Source: Methylocystis sp.
GTDB taxonomy: Bacteria > Pseudomonadota > Alphaproteobacteria > Rhizobiales > Beijerinckiaceae
Assembly: GCF_021731785.1 (NCBI RefSeq)
Contig: NZ_JAKFWS010000019.1
Coordinates: 1 to 39,377 of the forward strand
DNA length: 39,377 bases
Direction of reading: 5' to 3'
The notes beneath the pieces were generated by a model. That model had not been told where the DNA came from. It was given only the letters and a program-made list of their open reading frames with translations, and ran no database searches. Below, in pieces: positions 1,542 to 13,290 of this stretch (its first letter is position 1; each line of letters begins with the position of its first letter). The position numbers and the translations under genes are program-made.

Positions 1542-2300
1542 TCAGCGCTTCGATGCCTCGCCCGCGAGCCGCTCGCGTGCCGCCTCCGCGACGAGCGGAT
1601 CCCTGTCGTTGATCAAATGTCCGATTTCTTCCACGTTCAATCTCGTGGCGACGTAATGGCGCACGCGCCAATCGTCATCCTCTCTCAAATCCGACAATTG
1701 TTCCGGCGTCAACCTTTGAGCCGCTTCAAGACGCACATCGGCGTTCGAATCTCGACACATTCGCCCCAACCATTGGGCGTCAATCCGTTGCGCGACAATA
1801 CGTCGGACTTCCACTTCCGGGTCATCGAGCATCATCACCAGCAGCGCCGGCGCAACCTTACGCGCGATCACGATCCGCACGTAATAATCCTCATCCTGCA
1901 TCATCGGCAGAAGATCGGGATCGTCGAGCAGAGTGGCGACGCGGATGCGCACTTCGCGATGCGAATCATTGCGCAATTCGCATCGATAGCGCGCAGGCAG
2001 TCGCCGCACGGCTTCCCAGCGCACGGTTTCGTCGGGATCCGACAATAAGCGCGGCAAGAGAAATGGATTGGCGAATTTCGCTGCTATGGCGCGCACTTCG
2101 AAATGCGGGTGTGCAAGATAGCCGTCGGCGAACTCGGGATTCCAATTGAAGAAGCGATCGATGCGCCGCGCATATCGGTCATGCACGCAGGCTTTGCGCA
2201 ATTCGCATCGCGCCGCGACCAGCAGATCTCGATGCGCGCAGTGCGCACAGTCGATATCCAATCCGCGCCAGTCGCGCGCTTCGTCGATCTCACGCGTCAT
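1542..2300 (-). CDS. LRV protein 1: [4Fe-4S]-domain leucine-rich-repeat-variant protein
   Basis: This 252-residue protein starts with a cysteine cluster, C-x2-C-x10-C-x5-C, followed by HDRYARRIDRFF. After it come roughly eight 24-residue alpha-helical repeats with VRxxxAxRL-type cores. This is the architecture of the Azotobacter vinelandii LRV protein, whose N-terminal cysteines bind a [4Fe-4S] cluster. Its biochemical role is not established. The ATG chosen (MTREIDEARD) overlaps the end of TPR gene 1 by 11 bases; a longer frame upstream would run inside that gene. It is the last gene of the nifB transcription unit. A paralogue (LRV 2) precedes sufB. A function in Fe-S delivery or protein scaffolding for nitrogenase is a guess from context. 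Confidence 0.85.
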   Translation of the reverse strand: MTREIDEARDWRGLDIDCAHCAHRDLLVAARCELRKACVHDRYARRIDRFFNWNPEFADGYLAHPHFEVRAIAAKFANPFLLPRLLSDPDETVRWEAVRRLPARYRCELRNDSHREVRIRVATLLDDPDLLPMMQDEDYYVRIVIARKVAPALLVMMLDDPEVEVRRIVAQRIDAQWLGRMCRDSNADVRLEAAQRLTPEQLSDLREDDDWRVRHYVATRLNVEEIGHLINDRDPLVAEAARERLAGEASKR

Positions 2301-2823
2301 CTTCAAGACCGATTCTGTCGAGAACGCCGAGAAGAACCTTGGTGCCAATCTTGTCGGTTGGATCGAGTTCAAGCAGCTTGGCGATGGCCACCCGGCTTTC
2401 CTCGAACTCGCCCAAGCGCATCTGCAAATAGGCGTAGCTCTTCAAGGTAAACAGGAAGAAGCGCGGCAGGATTTCATCGTAGCGATCGAAAACCGCGTCC
2501 TGCGCCGAAGCGCGTCGCCAATCCCGCGGCATGTTGTTTTCGCGCGTCGCCTTTTCGAGACAGCGATTGGCGATTTCCAATGCTTCTCGCAATCTGCCCT
2601 TGTAAAAGTAAAAGCGATAGAAACCGATCAACACGGCAGCGTGATCGGGAGCCCATTGCTGGGCCTGGCGTAAATAGCGCTCGGCCGTGTCAGAATCAGC
2701 GTAGGTTTCGCTGGCAAGATGAAGAAATTCTTCGGCTTCCGTCGGTAGACCTTCGCCAAGCAGCGCCCCGGCGAGAAGCTCTTTCTCGTCGGGGCTTAGA
2801 GCGGCTACCTCGCCATTCGCCAT
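2290..2823 (-). CDS. TPR-like protein 1 of the nifB unit
   Basis: This predicted soluble protein of 177 residues has helical repeats of tetratricopeptide character, for example YLRQAQQWAPDHAAVLIGFYRFYFYKGRLREALEIA. A second block near the C-terminus reads LFTLKSYAYLQMRLGEFEE. The chosen ATG (MANGEVAALSPDEK) lies 11 bases after the IscA-like stop and has AAAGG upstream; a start 18 codons earlier would overlap that gene. A paralogue (TPR 2), sharing the pattern FxLxTLKxxxxxxxxxGxxExxxxxxxxLxxxDP, sits upstream of nifA. The pairing with ferredoxin, LRV and IscA-like genes suggests an accessory role in nitrogenase assembly. No catalytic motif is visible. Confidence 0.75.
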   Translation of the reverse strand: MANGEVAALSPDEKELLAGALLGEGLPTEAEEFLHLASETYADSDTAERYLRQAQQWAPDHAAVLIGFYRFYFYKGRLREALEIANRCLEKATRENNMPRDWRRASAQDAVFDRYDEILPRFFLFTLKSYAYLQMRLGEFEESRVAIAKLLELDPTDKIGTKVLLGVLDRIGLEDDA

Positions 2824-2834
2824 TGCGGGCGCCT

Positions 2835-3173
2835 TTAATGCACATGCTCCGCAATAGGAGTGCTGGCGCTCTTGCATGATCCAGTGTTCTTTGGATCATG
2901 AAAGACCAGCCCCCCGCTTAAAGCGGAATCGGCGAAATCAATCGCTACGCCGTCAAGCAGCAGGCGGCTTTCCGCCGGCAGAAAGAATTTCACGCCATCG
3001 ACAATGAACTCCTGATCGCCGGCGCGCGGCGCGGCTTCGACGTCGAATAGCGCGCTGAGTCCCGAACACCCCCCAGGAGACACCATTAAGCGAAAGCCTC
3101 CGCCTGGGTTGGCGCTAAACTGAATCATTCGCCGGATGAATTTTTGAGCGGCCGGCGTGAGCGTAAATTTCAT
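2835..3173 (-). CDS. IscA/HesB-family protein of the nif cluster with altered C-terminal cysteines
   Basis: This 112-residue A-type Fe-S carrier family member has the core SPGGCSGL at residues 33-40, with the first conserved cysteine at 36. Canonical IscA, SufA and NifIscA end with a C-G-C pair. Here the corresponding segment is NTGSCKSAS, which keeps only Cys100. Two of the three usual ligands therefore remain, so cluster or iron binding may differ or need a partner. The ATG has a perfect AGGAGG upstream. The gene lies 11 bases after fdxN and 11 bases before TPR gene 1, inside the nifB unit. Family assignment is firm; carrier activity is uncertain. Confidence 0.85.
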   Translation of the reverse strand: MKFTLTPAAQKFIRRMIQFSANPGGGFRLMVSPGGCSGLSALFDVEAAPRAGDQEFIVDGVKFFLPAESRLLLDGVAIDFADSALSGGLVFHDPKNTGSCKSASTPIAEHVH

Positions 3174-3184
3174 TGCTGGCCTCC

Positions 3185-3409
3185 TCAAGCCGGCGCTTGG
3201 TAACGCGGATAGGCGTTGTCGATCACGCAAGTGTTGTCGACCGGACAGACGGCGGCGCACTGCGGCGCGTCGAAATGGCCGATGCACTCCGTGCATTTCT
3301 TTGGGTCGATGACGAATGTGCCGTTTTTCTCGGTGATCGCCACATTCGGGCACTCCGGCTCGCAGGCCGAACAGCTCGTGCACTGTGAGGCGATGATCTT
3401 AAGCGTCAT
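3185..3409 (-). CDS. fdxN: FdxN-type 2[4Fe-4S] ferredoxin 1
   Basis: This 74-residue low-potential ferredoxin carries C-x2-C-x2-C-x3-C near the N-terminus and C-x2-C-x8-C-x3-C in the second half, the spacing of nif-linked bacterial ferredoxins. Such proteins donate electrons to nitrogenase or to NifB. It sits directly after nifB with a clear AGGAG ribosome site and is probably co-transcribed with it. A close paralogue starts the suf unit. The sequence after the second cluster motif extends by about 10 residues compared with that paralogue. Confidence 0.93.
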
Positions 3410-3443: not shown

Positions 3444-5015
3444 TCAGGCCGCGTTGATGAGGGCGCCCTGACGGATCTCGGCGTCGCCGCGCTCCTGATG
3501 TTCGATCTCTCCGCTGTTCACCTTGTCGAGATAGGCCTTGAACCAGGCGATCGCTGACTTCTCGATGAACTCATGCGCAAATTGATCGACGGGCTCGATC
3601 CCGGCTTTGATGAGATCGTTCTTCGGGCAGCCGCCGATTTTCGCGACGAACACCGCATGGCAGTCGTTGATGGCGCGGATGACCGTCTCCAGACTGTCCT
3701 CGTCGCCATATCCGCCCTGGCAGTAGAGATCGACCCGCCGATGTCCGACGAATTTCGCGCCCGAGGTCGAGAGCTCGTAAACCTGGAACTCTTTGGCGTG
3801 ACCGAAATGTTCGTTGATGAGGCCCGAACCCTTCGTCGCGACAGCGATCAGCAGCTTGATGTCGCTCGCCGCGCCGGCCAGCGTCGCCAGTTCTTCCTGC
3901 TTCGCGGCAACCTTGGCGACGCGCTCTTCTTCGACTTTTTCTTGATAGGCCTTGCGGGACTCGAGGTCGTAGTCAACCTCTATGGCCATGATTTTTTCGG
4001 TGGTGAACTCGGCGCTGCGATCTTCGCCGAGCAGGCCAACGGCGTCGGCGCGGCACTGGCGGCAATGACGCATCATGTTCATCTCGCCTTCGCAGCTGTC
4101 CTGCAGCGCCTTCAGCTCTTGCGCCGACGGACCGCGCTGGCCGTTGAGGCCGAACACCGTGCCGTGCTCCGGGGCCGAGATCAGCGGCATGATGTTGTGC
4201 AGGAACGCGCCGCGAGATTTGACGGCCTTGTTCACTTCGACGAGATGCTTGTCATTGATCCCAGGGATCATCACCGAGTTCACCTTGCACAGAATGCCGC
4301 GCTCGGTGAGCATTTCGAGGCCTTGCAGCTGTCGGTCGGTAAGCAGCTTCGCCGCTTCGACGCCGGTGTAGCGCTTATGCTTCCAGAACACCCAAGGGTA
4401 GATTTTTGCGCCGACTTCGGGATCGACCATATTGATGGTGATCGTGACGTGATCGACGTTGTAGCCGGCGATCGTGTCGACGTGATCCGGCAAAGCGAGC
4501 CCGTTGGTCGAGAGGCAAAGCTTGATGTCCGGCGCGGTGCGCGAGATCAGATCGAACGTCTTGAAGGTCTTTTCCGGATTGGCAAGCGGATCGCCCGGGC
4601 CGGCGATGCCCAGAACCGTCATTTGCGGAATGGTGGAGGCAACCGCCAAAACTTTCTTTGCGGCCTGCTCGGGGGTCAGCTTCTCGCTGACGACGCCGGG
4701 ACGCGACTCATTCGCGCAATCATATTTGCGGTTGCAATAGTTGCACTGGATGTTGCAGGCCGGCGCCACGGCGACGTGCATGCGCGCATAGTGATGGTGC
4801 GCCTCTTCGCTGTAGCAGGGGTGGTTCTTGACCTTCTCCCAAATCTCGGTCGGAAGGTCGCCCTGCCCGGCGCCCGAACCGCAGCTCGCCTTGCCGCTGC
4901 CGCCCGAGGTGCCGCAGCCCTTGTGCTCGGCGATTTTCTGCATCACGTCGTCCATGGCGACCGCCGCGTTCGCCCCCTCAACTGCCTCCGCCGTTCCAAC
5001 ATCCAGAGACGTCAT
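3444..5015 (-). CDS. nifB: NifB, radical SAM FeMo-cofactor precursor (NifB-co) synthase
   Basis: This 523-residue protein makes NifB-co, the [8Fe-9S-C] core of the FeMo cofactor, by SAM radical chemistry. The radical SAM motif CNIQCNYC has its cysteines at 87, 91 and 94. The NifB-typical [17 protein letters not shown] segment precedes it at about 64-80, and CRQCRAD lies downstream. From about residue 385 a NifX/NafY-like domain follows, with the pattern [18 protein letters not shown]. Length and domain order are normal for proteobacterial NifB. The ATG has AGAAGGAAG upstream. The gene has its own sigma-54 promoter with two NifA sites and an IHF site, and leads a unit with fdxN, an IscA-like gene, TPR 1 and LRV 1. 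Confidence 0.97.
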
Positions 5016-5100
5016 GGCTTTGCTTCCTTCTGTCGCTGCAAAGTCGCCTGTGCCGACTCTCGGCTGAGACGGACCGATGCATCACTTTGGCGAAGGGATC

Positions 5101-5115
5101 GCAACAACCATGCCA
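5101..5115 (-). promoter_or_regulatory. Sigma-54 (-24/-12) promoter of nifB
   Basis: The minus strand reads TGGCATG-GTTG-TTGC, with GG-N10-GC spacing, nearly identical to the nifH promoter. It lies about 85 bases before the nifB ATG. Confidence 0.9.
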
Positions 5116-5264: not shown

Positions 5265-6509
5265 TCAGGCGAGCATCTGACGCGCTTTCCGTATGGACTG
5301 AACGAACAGGTCCACCTCTTCCCGCGTATTGTAGAGCCCGAACGACGCCCGGCAGGCGGCGGTGACGCCGAAGCGGTTCAGCAGGGGCATAGCGCAGTGG
5401 GTTCCGGCGCGGATGGCGATTCCCGATCGATCGATGATCGTGGCGATATCATGCGGATGCACGCCGTCCATGGTAAAGGAAACAATGGCGCCCTTCTCTT
5501 CCGCCGTGCCGAGAATGCGTATCGACTCGATCTCGCTTAATCGCTCCGATGCATATTCGAGCAATTCGCGTTCATGCGCCCGGATGCGCGACTTGCCGAT
5601 CGAGTCAATGTAGTCGACCGCGGCGCCGAGCCCAATCGCCTGCACGATCGCGGGCGTCCCGGCTTCGAAGCGGTAAGGCAGATCTCCGTAAGTAATGCCC
5701 TCTTCCCGCACTTCCCGAATCATCTCGCCACCGCCGTTGAACGGACTCATCTCCGCGAGATGCGCATATTTTCCATAGAGAACGCCAATCCCGGTTGGCC
5801 CATAGAGCTTATGTCCGGTGACAACGTAAAAATCGCAGTCGAGATCCACGACGTCCACGTCTAGGTGCACTGCGGCCTGAGCCCCGTCGACGAGGACCGC
5901 GATGCCTCGCGCATGCGCGAGCGCTATAATTTCCTTGATCGGCGTCACCGCGCCCAACACGTTGGACATGTGCGTCACAGCGACGATCTTGGTGCGTTCG
6001 GTCAAAAGCTTTTCAAATTCCTCAAGAAGAAAATTGCCTTCGTCATCGACCTTGGCCCATTTGATGACGGCGCCATTGCGCTCGCGCAGGAAATGCCACG
6101 GCACAATGTTCGCGTGGTGCTCCATGATCGATAAAACGATTTCGTCGCCGGCGCCGATCCTGTCGCGCCCGAATGATTGCGCGACGAGATTTATCGCTTC
6201 CGTCGCGCCTCTTGTGAAGACAATCTCTTCCGAACGGCCAGCGTGCAGAAAACGCTGTAGCTTTTCGCGGGCGCCCTCATATTGCTCCGTCGCCGCATTG
6301 GCTAAAAAGTGAAGTCCGCGATGAACATTCGCATATTCGCCGGCGTAAGCGTGCTGAATACGATCGAGCACCACTTGAGGCTTTTGCGCCGACGCCGCAT
6401 TGTCCAGATAGACGAGCGGCTGACCATGGATTTTTACGTCCAAAATCGGGAAGTCGCGACGCAACCGCGCGACGTCATATGACGTCTCGCTCACAGGCTG
6501 TGGGATCAT
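5265..6509 (-). CDS. sufS: SufS, PLP-dependent cysteine desulfurase
   Basis: This 414-residue group II cysteine desulfurase provides sulfur for Fe-S cluster assembly. The PLP-binding lysine is in TGHKLYG (Lys234). The catalytic cysteine is in RAGTHCAMP (Cys372), in the short, constrained loop typical of SufS rather than NifS. The ATG overlaps the sufD stop as ATGA, so the two are translationally coupled; a longer frame upstream would run into sufD. It is the last gene of sufBCDS here. No nifS is present in the window, so this enzyme may supply nitrogenase. A sufE or sufU partner is not in the window. Confidence 0.96.
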   Translation of the reverse strand: MIPQPVSETSYDVARLRRDFPILDVKIHGQPLVYLDNAASAQKPQVVLDRIQHAYAGEYANVHRGLHFLANAATEQYEGAREKLQRFLHAGRSEEIVFTRGATEAINLVAQSFGRDRIGAGDEIVLSIMEHHANIVPWHFLRERNGAVIKWAKVDDEGNFLLEEFEKLLTERTKIVAVTHMSNVLGAVTPIKEIIALAHARGIAVLVDGAQAAVHLDVDVVDLDCDFYVVTGHKLYGPTGIGVLYGKYAHLAEMSPFNGGGEMIREVREEGITYGDLPYRFEAGTPAIVQAIGLGAAVDYIDSIGKSRIRAHERELLEYASERLSEIESIRILGTAEEKGAIVSFTMDGVHPHDIATIIDRSGIAIRAGTHCAMPLLNRFGVTAACRASFGLYNTREEVDLFVQSIRKARQMLA

Positions 6510-7834
6510 TGTCGCAGTCTCAGCCGCTCGGAGACGAGAGCGGTTAAAGCCTCTCGAACGCTGCGTTTCTCCACGGCGTCGATCACTTCCCCGACGAAAG
6601 CTTCCGTCAGCAGCGATTGAGCTTCCGCCTGGCAAATCCCGCGCGCCATCAGGTAGAAAATCAAGTTCTCGTCCAGCGCGCCGACGGTCGAACCATGCGC
6701 GCACTGCACGTCATCGGCGAAGATTTCCAGCTCCGGTTTGCAGTAGGCCTGCGCCCCTTCGGACAACAACAGCGTACGGGCCATCATGCGCGCGTCGGTC
6801 TTTTGCGCGCCGGGCCGAACCAGGATCTTCCCCTGAAACACCGCCTGCGACGAGTTATCCAGCACGGATTTGAACAGCGCTTTGCTTTCCGAACGTTCCG
6901 CGGCATGGTCGAGGAACAAGGTCGCGTCGGCGTGTTCCTTGTCCTTCAATATGTTGGCGCCCCGCAATGCGGCATGGGCGCCCGGCTCGTTCAGAGCAAT
7001 GAAGGACTGGTTGCGCAACACGCCTCCGCCGAGATTAAACCCGAAATCGCTGAGCTGCGCATCGGCGGCGAGCGAGGCGACGAAGGTCGAGACATGCATC
7101 GCGGCGGCGCCTTCGCGGCTGATCTTGAGCCGCTCAAGCGACGCGCCGCTTTCCAACACGACCTCGGTCGCGGCGTTCACGTGATATTCCTGTGTCGTTT
7201 CGCCCTCGAAGCTTTCGATCAGAGTCGCCCGCGCGCCTTTTTCAACGATGACGAGCGAGCGCAGGAAATAGGTTGCAGGCTGAGCGCCCGCGACGAAAAC
7301 CAATTGTATCGGTCGGTCGATGCATGCGCCCGCCCCGACGCGGATGACGACGCCTTCGCCCATGAAAGCCGTATTGAGCGCGAAGGCCGGATCGTCGACC
7401 TTGCCGACTTTTCCGATCTGCGCGGTCGTCGCGGCGTCGCCCTTGGCCAAGGCCCCTGACAGCGACATCACGCTCAACCCTGTTTCCAAATCGCCAAGAT
7501 CGGAAAGCCCCGGAACGAAATAGCCGCCGACGAAGACAATGCGCCGCGTCGCGACGCCGGCAAGTACCGCGGCGTTCTGCGCGCTTTGCTTCGCGCTGTC
7601 TTCCGGCGGCGTCGCCAGCGGCTTCACGTCACGCAGCAGCGCGCGCAAATCCGTGTATTTCCATGCCTCATCACGTCGATTGGGGAGGCCCGTCCTGGAA
7701 AAGGCGTCGAACGCCGCTGTGCGCAGCTTGGCAAGTTGCGGCGCCCCGGCGCTCTGTTGCGTGGCGAAGATTTCCGCCAGCCGAGCCTCGGCGTCGGTGA
7801 GTTTGCGCGTAGGCGTGGTCGGTGCGTGGCCCAT
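6506..7834 (-). CDS. sufD: SufD, Fe-S scaffold component
   Basis: This 442-residue SufB/SufD-family protein, with a beta-helix core, forms SufBC2D with SufB and SufC. It has the family C-terminal region with KPELEIFADDVQCAHGST and the following GALDENLIFYLMARG segment, whose conserved histidine and cysteine occur in SufD. The sufC stop lies 3 bases before its start, and it overlaps sufS by 4 bases. It belongs to the ferredoxin 2-LRV 2-sufBCDS unit. Confidence 0.96.
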   Translation of the reverse strand: MGHAPTTPTRKLTDAEARLAEIFATQQSAGAPQLAKLRTAAFDAFSRTGLPNRRDEAWKYTDLRALLRDVKPLATPPEDSAKQSAQNAAVLAGVATRRIVFVGGYFVPGLSDLGDLETGLSVMSLSGALAKGDAATTAQIGKVGKVDDPAFALNTAFMGEGVVIRVGAGACIDRPIQLVFVAGAQPATYFLRSLVIVEKGARATLIESFEGETTQEYHVNAATEVVLESGASLERLKISREGAAAMHVSTFVASLAADAQLSDFGFNLGGGVLRNQSFIALNEPGAHAALRGANILKDKEHADATLFLDHAAERSESKALFKSVLDNSSQAVFQGKILVRPGAQKTDARMMARTLLLSEGAQAYCKPELEIFADDVQCAHGSTVGALDENLIFYLMARGICQAEAQSLLTEAFVGEVIDAVEKRSVREALTALVSERLRLRQ

Positions 7835-7837
7835 GAC

Positions 7838-8596
7838 TTACGCCGCCTCGGCTTGGTAGCGCGCGTAGCCCGTTTCCTCGAGCTCCAAGGCAAGCTCCTT
7901 CCCGCCCGTCCGCACGATGCGGCCAGCCGACTGCACATGGACGACGTCGGGCGTGATGTAATCGAGCAGGCGCTGATAATGGGTGATCACAACGATGCCC
8001 CTGTCCTTCGAGCGTAATTGATTGACGCCGTTGGAGACGACTTTCAGCGCGTCGATGTCGAGCCCCGAGTCAGTTTCGTCCAGGATGCACAGCTTGGGTT
8101 CGAGCAGCATCATCTGCAGCGTCTCGGCGCGCTTCTTCTCACCGCCGGAGAAGCCGACGTTCACTGGACGCCGCAGCATCTCCATATCCATGTCGAGGAT
8201 CTTGGCGAGCTCCTTGACGCGCTTGATCAGGTCGGGCGAAGACATTTCCTCCTCACCGCGCTTCTTGCGCTGCGCGTTGAGCGCGGCGCGCAAAAAAGTC
8301 ATCGTCGCGACGCCCGGCACCTCCAGCGGATATTGAAAGGCGAGGAACAGCCCCGCCGCGGCGCGTTCGTCGACGCTCATCTGCGAGAGATCGGCGCCGG
8401 CGAGCAGCGCCTGCCCCTCGGTGATCGTATAGCCCGGGCGGCCCGACAGCACATAAGACAGCGTCGATTTGCCCGAGCCGTTCGGCCCCATGATCGCATG
8501 CACCTCGCCCGCATTCACGGTGAGATCATAGCCGTTCAGGATCTGCTTGCCGGCGATCTCGGCCTTAAGGTCACGAATTTCCAGTAGCGCGGTCAT
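7838..8596 (-). CDS. sufC: SufC, ABC ATPase of the SUF complex
   Basis: This 252-residue ATPase drives conformational change in the SufBCD scaffold. Walker A GPNGSGKS is at residues 37-44, the signature is FSGGEKKRAE, and Walker B is CILDETDSGLDID, in which the Suf-type E-T-D replaces the usual E-P-T. A GGGAG ribosome site precedes the ATG. It is flanked by sufB (26-base gap) and sufD (3-base gap). Length and motifs are normal. Confidence 0.97.
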   Translation of the reverse strand: MTALLEIRDLKAEIAGKQILNGYDLTVNAGEVHAIMGPNGSGKSTLSYVLSGRPGYTITEGQALLAGADLSQMSVDERAAAGLFLAFQYPLEVPGVATMTFLRAALNAQRKKRGEEEMSSPDLIKRVKELAKILDMDMEMLRRPVNVGFSGGEKKRAETLQMMLLEPKLCILDETDSGLDIDALKVVSNGVNQLRSKDRGIVVITHYQRLLDYITPDVVHVQSAGRIVRTGGKELALELEETGYARYQAEAA

Positions 8597-8622
8597 TCCA
8601 CAACTCCCAATCTGTTGAGGCG

Positions 8623-10110
8623 TCAGCCGACGCTGCCTTCGAGACTGACCGAGATCAGCTTTTGCGCTTCGACCGCGAATTCCATCGGCAGTTGCTGCAA
8701 CACGTCGCGCACGAAACCATTGACCACCAGCGCGGTTGCATCTTCCTGCGACAGTCCACGCTGCATGCAGTAGAACAAGACGTCCTCCGAGATTTTCGAG
8801 GTCGTCGCCTCATGCTCGAACACGCAGGACGGATTCTTCGCTTCGATGTAGGGGATCGTATGCGCGCTGCAGGCGTCGCCGATGAGCAGCGAGTCGCAAT
8901 TAGTGAAATTGCGGGCGCCTTCCGCCTTGCGATGCGCCGAGACGAGGCCGCGATAGGCGTTTGACGAACGGCCGGCCGAAATGCCCTTCGAAATGATGCG
9001 GCTCGTGGTGCCTTTGCCGAGATGGATCATCTTGGTTCCTGAGTCGACCTGCTGGCGACCGTTGGAAATCGCGATGGAGTAGAATTCGCCGCGCGAATTA
9101 TCGCCGCGCAGCACGCAGCTCGGGTATTTCCAGGTGATCGCCGAGCCCGTCTCGACCTGCGTCCAACTGATCTTCGAATTGGCGCCGCGGCAATCGCCGC
9201 GCTTCGTCACGAAATTATAGATTCCGCCCTTGCCGTTCTCGTCGCCCGGATACCAATTCTGCACGGTCGAATATTTGATCTCGGCGTCGTCGAGCGTCAC
9301 GAGCTCGACCACCGCCGCGTGCAATTGGTTCTCGTCGCGCTTGGGCGCGGTGCAGCCCTCGAGATAGCTGACGTAGGACCCGCGATCGGCGATGATAAGC
9401 GTCCGCTCGAACTGTCCGGTGTTCTTTTCGTTGATCCGGAAATAGGTCGACAATTCCATCGGGCAGCGCACGCCGGGCGGGATATAGACGAAAGAGCCGT
9501 CCGAAAACACCGCGCTGTTCAGCGTCGCGAAATAATTATCGGAAGTCGGCACCACGGTGCCGAGATATTTGCGCACCAGTTCGGGATGTTCGCGCAGCGC
9601 CTCCGAGATCGGGCAGAAGATCACCCCGGCCTTTTTCAACTCCTCCTTGAACGTCGTTGCGACGGAGACCGAGTCGAACACTGCGTCGACCGCGACGCGC
9701 GGGCGCTCTTCGCCCTCCGGGCGTTCGACGCCAGCGAGAATTTCGCGCTCATGCAGCGGAATGCCGAGTTTTTCGTAAGTACGCAGCAGCTCCGGATCAA
9801 CTTCGTCGAGCGATTTCGGACCGGCGGTCGATTTCGGCGCCGCGTAATAATAGAGATCCTGATAGTCGATCGCCGGGTAATCAACGCGCGCCCATTTCGG
9901 CTCGGTCATCGTCAGCCAGCGGCGATAGGCCTCGAGCCGCCAATCGAGCATCCATTCCGGCTCGCCCTTCTTTGCGGAAATGAAGCGGATCACCTCTTCG
10001 GAGAGACCCTTGGGCGCGAGATCCGATTCGATGTCGGTGACGAATCCGTATTTATATTGATCGGCGCCGACACGGCGAACTTGTTCAACTGTCTCTTGCA
10101 CCGCCGCCAT
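8623..10110 (-). CDS. sufB: SufB, Fe-S cluster scaffold
   Basis: This 495-residue SufB is the main scaffold on which clusters are built in SufBC2D. It has typical SufB blocks, including [17 protein letters not shown], the segment around [22 protein letters not shown], and the C-terminal [22 protein letters not shown] region with its conserved cysteine and histidine. A GGAGAG ribosome site is present, and the gap to the upstream LRV 2 gene is 12 bases, so it is co-transcribed with ferredoxin 2 and LRV 2. No IscR/SufR-type regulator gene is next to it. Instead, nifA and a NifA site lie upstream. Confidence 0.97.
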
Positions 10111-10122
10111 TTCGCTCTCCGT

Positions 10123-10860
10123 TCACTGTTGCGCTTCGACAAGGCGCGCCCGGGCGAGGCGCCTCACTTCCGGATCAGGATCGTCGCGCAGACGCGCCAG
10201 CAATTCCGTTCCACATCGCTCCGCCACCAGGAAGCGGACTCGCAAATCTTCGTCGGCAACGAGTAGCCCCAACTGCGCTGGCTCCAACCGCTCTGCAATA
10301 ATCATGCGCACGCGCGGTTCAGGGTCGCGCGCCATTGCCGGAAGCCTGTCGAGGGCGATCCGTCTCGCCGCTTCGCATCGCACCTGCGGGTCCTCATCCG
10401 TCGTCGCGCCGGCGAGAATATCGGGCGGCGCGCGACGCGCTGCAATCAGGCGCACGCCGCTGTCTTCGTCGAAAAGCAGTTTCACGAGGCCCGCGCCCTC
10501 GACTCGCTGGGCCATGGCCATGCGCACCTTGCGGTCCCGGTCGTCGATTAACTTTTCAGCGAGACGCAACGGCAGACGTTGCGCCACCATGGCTCTGACG
10601 TCCGGCTCTTCGTCGTCGATCAGCGCGCGCAATTGAAACACGCTCGCATATTTCACCGCGCCGACGCGCAGTTCAAAATAAGGATGGTCGAGATATTTGG
10701 CAGATTCTTGCGGACTGGCGGCGAAGAACCGGTCGATGCGCCGGGCCCGGCGATCGCGCACGCAAATCTGCCCGAGATCGCAAAGACCTTTCTCGCGAAT
10801 CTCCACATGTGGACAATCGCGGCAGGACAGGAAATTTCCGAGCCAGTCGACCGCGTCCAT
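10123..10860 (-). CDS. LRV protein 2: [4Fe-4S]-domain leucine-rich-repeat-variant protein
   Basis: This 245-residue paralogue of LRV 1 has the same cysteine spacing, C-x2-C-x10-C-x5-C, near residues 11-31, followed by RDRRARRIDRFF. About eight repeats of roughly 24 residues follow, for example DDRDRKVRMAMAQRV and DEDLRVRFLVAERC. The ATG chosen gives MDAVDWLGNFLS; frames further upstream overlap ferredoxin 2. It sits between ferredoxin 2 and sufB in one tight unit. The Fe-S domain is inferred from similarity in layout to the Azotobacter LRV protein. Its position in a SUF operon makes Fe-S handling the most natural guess. Confidence 0.85.
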   Translation of the reverse strand: MDAVDWLGNFLSCRDCPHVEIREKGLCDLGQICVRDRRARRIDRFFAASPQESAKYLDHPYFELRVGAVKYASVFQLRALIDDEEPDVRAMVAQRLPLRLAEKLIDDRDRKVRMAMAQRVEGAGLVKLLFDEDSGVRLIAARRAPPDILAGATTDEDPQVRCEAARRIALDRLPAMARDPEPRVRMIIAERLEPAQLGLLVADEDLRVRFLVAERCGTELLARLRDDPDPEVRRLARARLVEAQQ

Positions 10861-10895
10861 GCGATGGGTCGCCCCGCTAGGCCGCACTTCTGAGG

Positions 10896-11090
10896 CTATG
10901 CCGGCACGCAAGTGTTTTCGACGGGACAGACGACCGCACATTGCGGCGTGTCGAAGTGCCCCTCGCACTCGGTGCATTTCTTCGGGTCGATGATGTACAT
11001 GTCGTTCTTGAGGCGGATCGCCGCATTCGGACATTCGAATTCGCAAGCGCCGCACACTGTGCATTGTGAGGCGATGATTTTGTACGCCAT
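10896..11090 (-). CDS. FdxN-type 2[4Fe-4S] ferredoxin 2
   Basis: This 64-residue paralogue of ferredoxin 1 shares KIIASQCT near the N-terminus, C-x2-C-x2-C-x3-C, and the block IDPKKCTEC with C-x2-C-x8-C-x3-C. It likely carries two low-potential [4Fe-4S] clusters. The ATG is preceded by GAGGAA. It is the first gene of the unit that continues with LRV 2 and sufBCDS, and a sigma-54-like promoter and a NifA site lie upstream. It could reduce SUF, LRV or nitrogenase components; which of these is unknown. Confidence 0.92.
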
Positions 11091-11133
11091 GTCGCGATTC
11101 CTCATGGATTCACTGCAAGCTTGTCCCCTCCCT

Positions 11134-11148
11134 TCAAATCGCATGCCA
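11134..11148 (-). promoter_or_regulatory. Sigma-54 promoter candidate of ferredoxin 2-LRV 2-suf
   Basis: The minus strand reads TGGCATG-CGAT-TTGA. The -24 block equals those of nifH and nifB, but the -12 block ends GA instead of GC. A weaker alternative, with GG-N10-GC spacing and an intact TTGC but a poor -24 block, lies at 11115-11129. Either one would place the suf unit under RpoN control. Confidence 0.55.
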
Positions 11149-11308
11149 GTCGTCAAACGGCCTGTCCAACTCAAGCGGCGGCTCGTAGAGTTGAACGCCG
11201 ATAATCGCATGTGGGCCTGCAGGCGGGCGGCTCAAAGCCGATCTTTGCCTGCTCGACCCCTTTCTGGCGGGACGCTCGAGCCCGCGCAGCCGCATGAATT
11301 TGAACAAA

Positions 11309-11324
11309 TGTCCTAAATACGACA
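11309..11324. promoter_or_regulatory. NifA site upstream of the ferredoxin 2-suf unit
   Basis: TGT-CCTAAATACG-ACA is a perfect NifA site in the gap between nifA and ferredoxin 2, about 160 bases upstream of the candidate -24 element. It points to NifA control of the suf genes. Confidence 0.7.
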
Positions 11325-11338
11325 ATCGCCGGATGCGC

Positions 11339-13120
11339 TCAGATGCGCTTTATCTCGATGTTGTATTTCTTCAGCGCATAATTGACCTGACGCAGCGATA
11401 GGCCGAGAAGGCGCGCTGCTTTCGCCTGCACCCAGGCGGCTTTCTCCATGCCTTCGATGAGACTTTCCCGATCGATCATCTTGCGGGACGAGGCTATGCC
11501 GCGGCCTTCCTCCTCACCGGCGGCGTCGAGCGGCGGGCGAGGCTCCTCGGGGAAGGTCGGAACCGGCGCCGCTTCGGCGCGGCGCGCCGGCGCGATATCC
11601 GCTGGCGGCGCGGCGCGCATGTTGGCGGATTCGGGATATGTTTGCGGAAAGGCGCCGCTGGCGCTTCCGGTCCACAGCAAGGCCGACAGGCATTTGCCCG
11701 AGGCGCAGGCGAAATCGTGATCGACGATGGTTTCGGCGGGCGCCAAGGTCGCCGTGCGGCGCACGCAATTTTCCAATTCACGAACGTTCCCAGGGAAGTA
11801 GCAGCGTTGCAGCGTCTCGATGGCGCTCGCCGAGAGCTGGTGCTTTTGATCGTTTTCGCTGTTGAAACGCTCGATGAAATTACGCGCCAGCAGCGACACG
11901 TCGCCAGGCCGCTCGCGCAGCGGCGGCAGGAACACTGGCACGACGCTGATGCGGTAATAGAGGTCGGCGCGGAACTCGCCTTTGTCGACGGCCGCTTCGA
12001 GGTTTTTGTTGGTCGCGAAAACGAATCGGATGTTGACCTTCAAGGTCTTGGAGCCGCCAACCCGCTCGAATTCGCCTTCCTGCAGCACGCGCAGCAGCTT
12101 CGCCTGGAAGGAGGGAGATATTTCGCCGATTTCGTCGAGCAACAACGTGCCGCCATTGGCGAGTTCGAAGCGTCCAGCACGCTGTGCGACGGCGCCGGTG
12201 AAGGCGCCGCGCTCATGACCGAACAGTTCCGATTCGAGCACGCTTTCCGGCAGCGCGGCGCAGTTCACCTTGACGAAGGGCTTGGCGCTGCGGCGCGACA
12301 GGTCGTGCACCGCGCGCGCGAAAAGCTCCTTGCCAGTGCCGCTTTCGCCCCGTAGCAGCACGGTCGAATTCGACTTGGCGACGACGGCGATGGTGTTGAG
12401 CACCTCCATGATCGCCGGGCTCTCGCCGACGATGCCGGCGACATCCGGCCGCTCGCCACGGATATCCTTCGGCATACATGAGACCAGCGCCTTTTCAAGC
12501 GTGCTGCATTCGTTCAGCAGGCGCTGCCGATCGGCCGAAAACATCCGGTGCAGCTTCACCGTCTGGCCGATCAAATTGGCGATCATCGTCAAGAGGCGTA
12601 GATCGGCGTCGAAAGTGTAGGCGATGAACTCATCCGCTGTGCGATAGATCGACAAAGTCCCGACGACGCGGCTGTCGCTCTTGATCGCAACGGCAAGGAA
12701 GGAGACTCTCGGCCCCACCGCCTGGGTGATCGTCTCAGCCGCTGTCGCGAACAAGCTATCGTTGGTGACGTCCTCGACGATGACCGGCATGGCGGTGGCG
12801 ACGAGCCGGTCAATCACCTTGGCCGGCAGAGTGTCGATCGGCTTGCTGTGATCGTGGCTGATCCAGCCCGAGGTCGCGACGATCTCCGGATTGCCGTGCT
12901 GATCGAGGATCGTGATCATCCCCAATTTCATGTCGAGAAATGAGCTGAGCACGCTGACGACATTGGCCAGCGTCTGCTCGAGGCGGGCCGGCGCAGTCAG
13001 AATTTTGGAGATTTCATAGACGCCGAGCAGCGCAGTGTCGGCGGACGGGGTTCTCGCCGGCGGCGACTTTACTGCCACGCCCTCGGTCGGCAACGAGCGT
13101 GAAGTCACTAAATGGTCCAT
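11339..13120 (-). CDS. nifA: NifA, sigma-54-dependent activator of nif genes
   Basis: This 593-residue enhancer-binding protein has an N-terminal GAF domain (about 40-185). The AAA+ domain that follows contains Walker A GESGTGKE (258-265), the sigma-54 contact loop GAFTGA (305-310) and Walker B LLLDE (326-330). The C-terminal Fis-type helix-turn-helix includes [20 protein letters not shown]. Cysteines at 440, 452, 472 and 477 give C-x11-C-x19-C-x4-C across the end of the AAA+ domain and the linker. This is the hallmark of the oxygen- and metal-sensitive NifA proteins of alphaproteobacteria. The linker between Cys477 and the helix-turn-helix is long and rich in Ala and Pro. NifA should act on the TGT-N10-ACA sites found in this window. 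Confidence 0.97.
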
Positions 13121-13247: not shown

Positions 13248-13290
13248 CGTGTCGGACAAACGCAGTGCACAATGTTGGTTTTCCGACACG
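13248..13290. repeat. 9-base inverted repeat in the nifA upstream region
   Basis: CGTGTCGGA and its reverse complement TCCGACACG are separated by 25 bases. The right arm overlaps a TGT-N10-ACA motif. The spacing (about three turns between arm centres) suits a dimeric regulator rather than an RNA hairpin. Confidence 0.55.
13273..13288. promoter_or_regulatory. NifA-like site upstream of nifA
   Basis: TGT-TGGTTTTCCG-ACA fits the NifA consensus and lies about 155 bases before nifA. I found no convincing -24/-12 promoter between it and nifA, so autoactivation is uncertain and the match may be by chance or serve another regulator. Confidence 0.4.

Follow-up and report, generated by a model that had tools for sequence, protein, structure and literature searches.

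Does the SUF operon that lies between nifA and nifB in the nitrogen fixation (nif) cluster of a Methylocystis strain build iron-sulfur (Fe-S) clusters for nitrogenase, and if so, does it take the place of NifU, the standard nitrogenase-cluster scaffold and a common part in the transfer of nitrogenase to new hosts? We addressed this question by a computational analysis of contig NZ_JAKFWS010000019.1 of assembly GCF_021731785.1 (the window, which is the whole contig C35 of 39,377 bp), from a genome of 4.2 Mb and 197 contigs, for which completeness is 99.93% and contamination 3.12%. A preliminary description of the locus had placed a ferredoxin gene, an LRV gene and sufBCDS in one tight unit, preceded by nifA, a TGT-N10-ACA site and a TGGCATG-type element and followed by nifB. 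All of these were located, on the minus strand, with gaps of at most 35 bp inside the unit and with SufB, SufC, SufD and SufS orthologues in one operon, each above its NCBIfam cut-off. Our analysis makes it likely that this is a second SUF system, dedicated to nitrogen fixation, whose SufBCD stands in for the scaffold of NifU.

A second SUF operon and a shortened NifU in one genome

The preliminary description had reported nifU and nifS as absent, which holds for the window but not for the genome, since nifS and a truncated nifU are present on contig C51. Absence of nifS from the genome was ruled out by an Aminotran_5 search together with an NCBIfam match. C51 carries an operon of an A-type carrier gene (iscA), a 98-aa nfu and nifS, and its NifS scores 577 bits with TIGR03402 (cut-off 531), while the 98-aa protein, which matches Pfam PF01106, covers only positions 218-290 of the 290 of TIGR02000 (76 bits, cut-off 273). 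Upstream of this operon are a NifA upstream activator site (UAS, TGT-N10-ACA) and a sigma-54-like site. The NifU-bearing Methylocystis genome G017 has the order iscA-nifU-nifS, and because iscA-nfu-nifS occupies the same slot, NifU appears to have been shortened in place to its C-terminal Nfu domain, with the scaffold and central domains gone. The iscA-nfu-nifS set lies ~14 kb past nifH in four of the five relatives fetched (assemblies of 1-6 contigs), the fifth stretch having ended short. When the whole genome was searched with the NifU_N profile, a single weak match was returned (32.8 bits), to a SufU-like protein on contig C38 which reaches 71 bits against an NCBIfam cut-off of 92.5. A complete nifUS pair elsewhere, which the preliminary description had named as evidence against itself, did not turn up: no full-length NifU with the NifU_N scaffold was found in the 197 contigs of this 99.93% complete genome. 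The proposal that SUF replaces the NifU-NifS pair thus survives for the NifU scaffold, which is missing, and fails for NifS, an equivalog of which is encoded on C51 behind a UAS and a sigma-54-like site of its own.

The SUFBD_core profile gave four matches in the genome, and these belong to the window operon and to a second suf operon on contig C36, which is of housekeeping type with the order iscS-like, sufB, sufC, sufD, sufS, FeS_assembly_P (SufT-type) and an A-type carrier gene. The preliminary description had left two roles for SUF, dedicated to nitrogenase or shared with it. Because of the second operon a single shared suf operon is ruled out, while genome comparison lends the dedicated role good support. 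The nif-linked (nif-suf) copy is 82% identical to the housekeeping one in SufB, 64% in SufC, 39% in SufD and 66% in SufS. In alignments the window SufB retains the cysteine matching C405 of 5awf, SufD the ADDVxCxH histidine (aligned with 11mp/1vh4) and SufS the active-site cysteine region THCAMP (aligned with SufS-family chains); the catalytic residues, in role and number, we take to be C405 of SufB, H360 of SufD and C364 of SufS. No SufE or SufU partner was seen inside the nif-suf operon, sufE not having been searched for genome-wide. On C51 a SufT-type gene (PF01883; L063 2533-2838), 61% identical to the housekeeping one, adjoins a second nifH, and the same is seen in genome G119.

Distribution, descent and competing explanations

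In a sample of 39 Methylocystis genomes, in which a nif-type SUF was scored as a SufD at least 83% identical, nif-SufD was found in 15 and full NifU in 12, and no genome had both. NifB was above its cut-off in 29 of the 39, and G146 has a partial nifB. The 12 NifU-bearing genomes have one SufD each, whereas all 18 nifB-bearing genomes without full NifU (G146 with its partial nifB included) have two. The nfu gene was seen in five of the 15 suf-bearing genomes (this one and four others), the other ten giving no strong NifU_N match. Comparison with named genomes puts the strain in Methylocystis: among the best 80 of 479 relatives, the seven nearest nif-SufD loci share 83-90% identity with it, and M. 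suflitae, M. silviterrae and Methylocystis sp. H62 are represented in this set. At locus L073 (7619-8398 onward) sufB is in two pieces, which may be a broken gene or a sequencing error.

Not every extra SUF in the genus is of the window type. Three nifB-bearing genomes, G144, G146 and G119, lack both full NifU and a window-type SUF. In G144 and G146 another sufBCDS is present, with neither iscS nor sufT beside it; in G144 its sufB is at a contig end ~7 kb past nifZ and sufCDS is on a different contig, while in G146 it is whole and follows the same neighbours. G119 has nfu, lacks a window-type SUF and carries its own sufBCDS duplicated ~18 kb from nifH, the extra copy being 100% identical to its housekeeping suf. 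For G146, a genome 59% complete, nfu was not seen. In a tree of SufB, SufC, SufD and SufS the extra copies of G144, G146 and G119 join the Methylocystis housekeeping suf, apart from the window clade, and lack of full NifU is therefore accompanied by an extra SUF that has arisen from one of three sources.

The sufS gene, which needs ~1245 bp, gives a second line of evidence. The distance from sufD to the start of the nifB model is 1662-2056 bp in four of the 15 nif-suf genomes of Methylocystis (window included) and 576-772 bp in the other 11, in which by this measure sufS is lost; six of these 11 losses, and the intact call for G134, were made from distance alone. Remnants of sufS were recognized inside the short gap at five named loci, and L070 retains both gene ends recognizably. 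M. silviterrae FS (L071) and M. suflitae NLS-7 (L068) are among those without sufS. Between the window and three relatives, two of them without sufS, dN/dS is 0.02-0.05 for sufB and sufC and 0.13-0.24 for sufD. Retention of sufBCD despite the loss of sufS points to a scaffold role, and it fits a SufBCD which, having no desulfurase of its own, would be fed by NifS or by the housekeeping system. In the three sufS-losing genomes examined (G121, G126, G128) nifS is full length and without stops.

Outside the genus we used a scan of named genomes, seeded with nif-SufD and taking the best 80 of 479 relatives, so that sampling leans to the nif-suf clade; L080, L102 and L106, short contigs showing no nif gene, were placed with the nif-linked loci only because of their similarity and of a missing sufT. 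Full NifU was absent from 27 of the 28 genomes reached via nif-type suf loci (seven of them Methylocystis already among the 15, L108 left out, and three giving no NifU_N match at all, where incompleteness is possible), the exception being Methyloceanibacter methanicus. In the NifU of three Methyloceanibacter-like genomes that carry nif-suf (G225, G338 and G427, of which G427 shares its coordinates with M. methanicus) the cysteine is kept in nine of ten columns, and the first scaffold position is F, F or Y in all three. In contrast, all three scaffold cysteines are kept in 32 of 32 NifU from genomes without nif-type suf (six of these differ at one Nfu-domain column; G425, a fragment, and G465, without nifB, were left out).

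Several observations weigh against SufBCD as a substitute for NifU. The same three Methyloceanibacter-like genomes have a nifU gene, though one lacking a scaffold cysteine, in addition to nif-suf, and they break any strict rule by which a dedicated SUF would exclude nifU. On the NifB tree the 15 suf-bearing Methylocystis genomes form one group (support 87, not starred), sister to G144 and G146, and because of this grouping the split of 15 versus 12 is one switch and not 27 independent cases, so treating these genomes as independent had to be abandoned. NifU was probably cut before nif-suf arrived in Methylocystis, since G119 has nfu without a window-type SUF. G147 has an extra suf, and G135 an extra suf with iscA-nfu-nifS, and no nifB was found in either; nor was a UAS found in the stretches scanned upstream of the extra suf of G144, G146 and G119. 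In a sample of the order (397 genomes) nifB was present in 69; NifU accompanies it in 25 of these, once as a fragment, and is lacking in 44. Among these 44, SufB is present as two whole copies in G000 and G389, as two partial copies in G492 and as one copy beside a decayed one in G319, while in the remaining 40 nothing points to a second SufB. This rules out a strict rule that no NifU means a dedicated SUF: such a SUF is not required once NifU is gone and is one solution among others. Finally, G319 (8.8 Mb), a NifU-less relative, has a decayed nif-suf together with a decayed nifA copy. Between these decayed copies fdx1, the ferredoxin gene, looks intact (L198 9286-12625), and in the nifB-bearing, 99% complete genome G503 no SufB was found at E 1e-60.

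A rival explanation is that the second SUF is only a capacity booster, raising total Fe-S output for any client (ferredoxins, NifB, respiratory proteins) when N2 is being fixed, while the housekeeping SUF by itself could mature nitrogenase. The 40 of 44 NifU-less diazotrophs without a second SufB, the probable early cut of NifU in Methylocystis and the decayed operon of G319 would all agree with it. We nevertheless hold it unlikely. Against it stand the count of SufD, one in 12 of 12 NifU-bearing and two in 18 of 18 nifB-bearing NifU-less Methylocystis genomes, the degenerate NifU scaffold in the sole genus seen with both, and sufBCD being kept without sufS. Replacement of NifU and NifS together, with SufS as the sulfur donor of nitrogenase, as the preliminary description had it, is very improbable: the window has an intact sufS and no nifS, but the NifS equivalog on C51 belongs to a UAS-bearing operon, and of 15 relatives 11 no longer have sufS, three of which were examined for nifS and have it intact. 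That the SUF works mainly for the ferredoxin and the LRV iron-sulfur protein encoded with it, or shields cluster assembly from oxygen in an aerobic methanotroph, SUF being held to be the more oxygen-hardy system, agrees with the tight co-operon and is scarcely credible given the same suf in Bradyrhizobium and Xanthobacter and the relatives described next, whose fdx1 and/or LRV1 stand near nifA or nifB with no such suf.

LRV_FeS was found in 17 of 119 genomes of a family-level sample. In 13 of 18 stretches from 16 LRV_FeS genomes fdx1 and/or LRV1 lie near nifA or nifB, and window-type suf is there in none, so that fdx1 and LRV1 need no dedicated SUF and suf was probably added later to an older fdx1/LRV1 unit. 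At L048 and L050 a suf operon with sufT lies within ~10 kb of nifA. The sufBCDS-sufT sets near nifA in L197 (G389) and L050 (G071) form a separate SufC+SufD branch, outside the window clade.

Turning to descent, a quick tree of SufC+SufD with 65 rows put all 32 nif-linked rows in one clade (SH-aLRT 97), nested among housekeeping suf of Xanthobacteraceae and Nitrobacteraceae, with the strain's own housekeeping suf outside it on a long branch; the tree has 31 housekeeping rows (L017 and 30 random ones) and carries a long-branch warning, L017 included. A smaller, careful tree concurs (12 nif rows, 95/99). Bradyrhizobium and Xanthobacter also have nif-type suf. In the tree a long stem leads to the copies of Methylocystis, in agreement with their transfer from outside the family. 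Nif-suf would then have begun as a paralogue of housekeeping suf of the Xanthobacteraceae type. It would have shed iscS at one end and sufT/sufA at the other, been placed once under the fdx1 promoter and been transferred into Methylocystis. For the genus as a whole we see an even chance that loss of the NifU scaffold was followed, on at least three separate occasions, by the gain of another sufBCDS within or close to the nif region (once through the NifA-linked clade from outside, once through an old duplication that put a copy of the housekeeping operon among the nif genes, and once through a very recent duplication), and that in the NifA-linked line the desulfurase then decayed in most members, leaving a hybrid NifS-SufBCD-Nfu pathway.

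Layout of the locus and predicted NifA/sigma-54 control

The features of the locus are collected in Table 1.

Table 1. Genes and promoter motifs of the nif-linked suf locus (window coordinates)
Feature	Position	Strand	Evidence
nifB, next operon	3444-5015	-	TIGR01290 689 bits, cut-off 344
sufS, cysteine desulfurase, intact	5265-6509	-	TIGR01979 593 bits, cut-off 475
sufD	6506-7834	-	TIGR01981 251 bits, cut-off 222
sufC, ATPase	7838-8596	-	TIGR01978 346 bits, cut-off 213
sufB, nif-linked SUF	8623-10110	-	NF008773 909 bits, cut-off 717
LRV1, LRV repeats and [4Fe-4S] N-terminal domain	10123-10860	-	PF05484 LRV_FeS, LRV repeats
fdx1, 64-aa 2[4Fe-4S] ferredoxin, at the head of the operon	10896-11090	-	Fer4 domains
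Sigma-54-like -24/-12 element, TGGCATG-N4-TTGAA, 58 bp before the fdx1 start codon	11133-11148	-	Motif scan
NifA UAS, TGT-N10-ACA, palindromic, TGTCCTAAATACGACA	11309-11324	.	Motif scan
nifA, sigma-54 activator	11339-13120	-	TIGR01817 716 bits, cut-off 529; Pfam GAF, AAA+, HTH_8

From fdx1 through LRV1 and sufBCDS the gaps are 35, 12, 26 and 3 bp, followed by a 4-bp overlap, and the intergenic regions are 248 bp between nifA and fdx1 and 249 bp between sufS and nifB. The best NCBIfam model for fdx1 is of YfhL type, at 76 bits below the cut-off of 86. The operon probably ends with sufS, because nifB has two UAS (starts 5170 and 5213) and a sigma-54-like element (5100-5115) of its own. After nifB come a second ferredoxin, an IscA-like, a TPR and a second LRV_FeS gene (1545-3409), an order kept in many relatives with or without suf. 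At its left edge (1-93) the window holds the opening 31 codons of nifH, minus strand, and C51:1-93 holds the same codons; these probably belong to separate copies of nifH at which the assembly broke. G119 matches this picture, with a nifH beside LRV2/nifB and another beside the o250 gene. A further TGT-N10-ACA site, at 13273-13288, precedes the start of nifA by ~150 bp and may hint at autoregulation.

Before fdx1 a TGT-N10-ACA site is present upstream of a -24/-12 element, the arrangement of a NifA/sigma-54 promoter. The -12 part reads TTGAA, where the consensus has TTGCA; consensus and weights in the scan were of our own choosing. In a 300-bp region ~3% of shuffles match the UAS and 3.5% the sigma-54 score, and TGT-N10-ACA matches eight times across the window, so the fdx1 motifs are each weak alone and this promoter by itself is suggestive only. 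Comparison strengthens the case for the NifA site: an exact TGT-N10-ACA is found upstream of 21 of 23 nif-linked suf loci, which are related by descent and not 23 independent cases, versus none of 35 housekeeping iscS-suf operons, and this lifts the site above chance. All 15 non-Methylocystis loci have two copies of the UAS (19 bp apart in 13), and six of the eight Methylocystis loci have one. All 23 nif-linked loci have the sigma-54-like element, which in each of the eight Methylocystis loci lies between -55 and -58 relative to fdx1. No UAS was found within 350 bp upstream of the own housekeeping suf operon, and no sigma-70-like or terminator-like site in 10890-11345. NifA control is argued against by the two Methylocystis loci without an exact UAS (L070, with a one-mismatch site, and L072, with none) and by the sigma-54 scores, which are 12 to 14.5 in nif-linked loci and up to 12.5 in the 35 housekeeping upstream regions. 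Those of Methylocystis, 12-12.5, come up to this control maximum and never go beyond it, and as the ranges overlap the sigma-54 score alone cannot separate Methylocystis from the control.

If SufBCD does replace the NifU scaffold, NifA and sigma-54 would turn on fdx1-LRV1-sufBCDS together with nifB, nifH and iscA-nfu-nifS. SufBCD would assemble [4Fe-4S] units for NifH, NifB and the MoFe protein in NifU's stead, with sulfur supplied by SufS (where intact) and/or NifS, and the stand-alone Nfu, a remnant of NifU, would carry clusters to their targets along with IscA-type proteins.

Comparison with known systems

The NIF system of the Azotobacter/Klebsiella type consists of NifU and NifS. Methylocystis resembles it in keeping NifS and an IscA-type protein in one operon, and in keeping the Nfu domain of NifU, and differs from it in having neither the scaffold nor the [2Fe-2S] domains of NifU. 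With the housekeeping SUF of Hyphomicrobiales (iscS-like, sufBCDS, sufT, sufA) the nif copy shares a homologous sufBCDS in the same order, while it is without the iscS-like gene, sufT and sufA and has NifA/sigma-54 sites.

The preliminary description knew of no standard account of a NifA-controlled suf operon. Linkage of nifA and suf is in fact already in print for Bradyrhizobium: fixR-nifA-fer-sufBCDS is reported in strain DOA9 (PMC6066989), and for B. nitroreducens TSA1 sufBCDSE is given among the nif genes (PMC6167111). For Methylocystis no report of a NifA-linked suf was met in the open-licence literature searched. The suf of DOA9 (L090) and TSA1 (L104) fall in the same clade as that of the window, and in DOA9 the genes after nifA come in the same order, with two tandem NifA sites. 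The Methylocystis unit differs from the Bradyrhizobium loci in its LRV1, its single UAS, the adjoining nifB and the frequent loss of sufS. In DOA9 rpoN mutants suf genes are down, the suf copy being unspecified (PMC13207237), and by analogy suf expression in Methylocystis may depend on NifA and RpoN. The same paper lists a 'nifU' as RpoN-dependent, which would not suit the absence of NifU from such genomes; a NifU_N search of the DOA9 genome gave only a weak match, in a 174-aa frame, and the listed gene may encode an Nfu-type protein.

The passages on suf in PMC6066989, PMC6167111 and PMC13207237 do not tie Bradyrhizobium suf to loss of NifU, and no statement tying such a SUF to NifU loss or truncation was found in the open-licence literature. 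A word search of main texts found no suf operon in PMC4999443, PMC5017802, PMC4036050 and PMC6422874, nor in PMC10960957, which is on a Methylocystis nif cluster. While the nifA-suf linkage is known from Bradyrhizobium, the trade-off with NifU was thus not met in this literature. If it is true, the dedicated SufBCD of this group of free-living and plant-associated alphaproteobacteria would be a natural alternative scaffold for nitrogenase transfer designs. Since Methylocystis has members with NifU, with SUF and sufS, and with SUF lacking sufS, the question of scaffold and sulfur donor can be tested there by single knock-outs and swaps.

The closest functional parallel that we met is Paenibacillus polymyxa WLY78, in which mutants show that SufCDB, a NifS-like protein and the Nfu protein YutI matter for nitrogenase (PMC8038749). 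There is no NifU there, and a SufCDB scaffold is combined with a NifS-like sulfur donor and a stand-alone Nfu carrier, the same three parts as we propose for this Methylocystis strain. In P. polymyxa, as described in that paper, the sole complete suf operon does this work and the nifS-like gene is unlinked to nif, whereas the strain studied here has a second, probably dedicated SUF, which lies among its nif genes and downstream of a NifA site.

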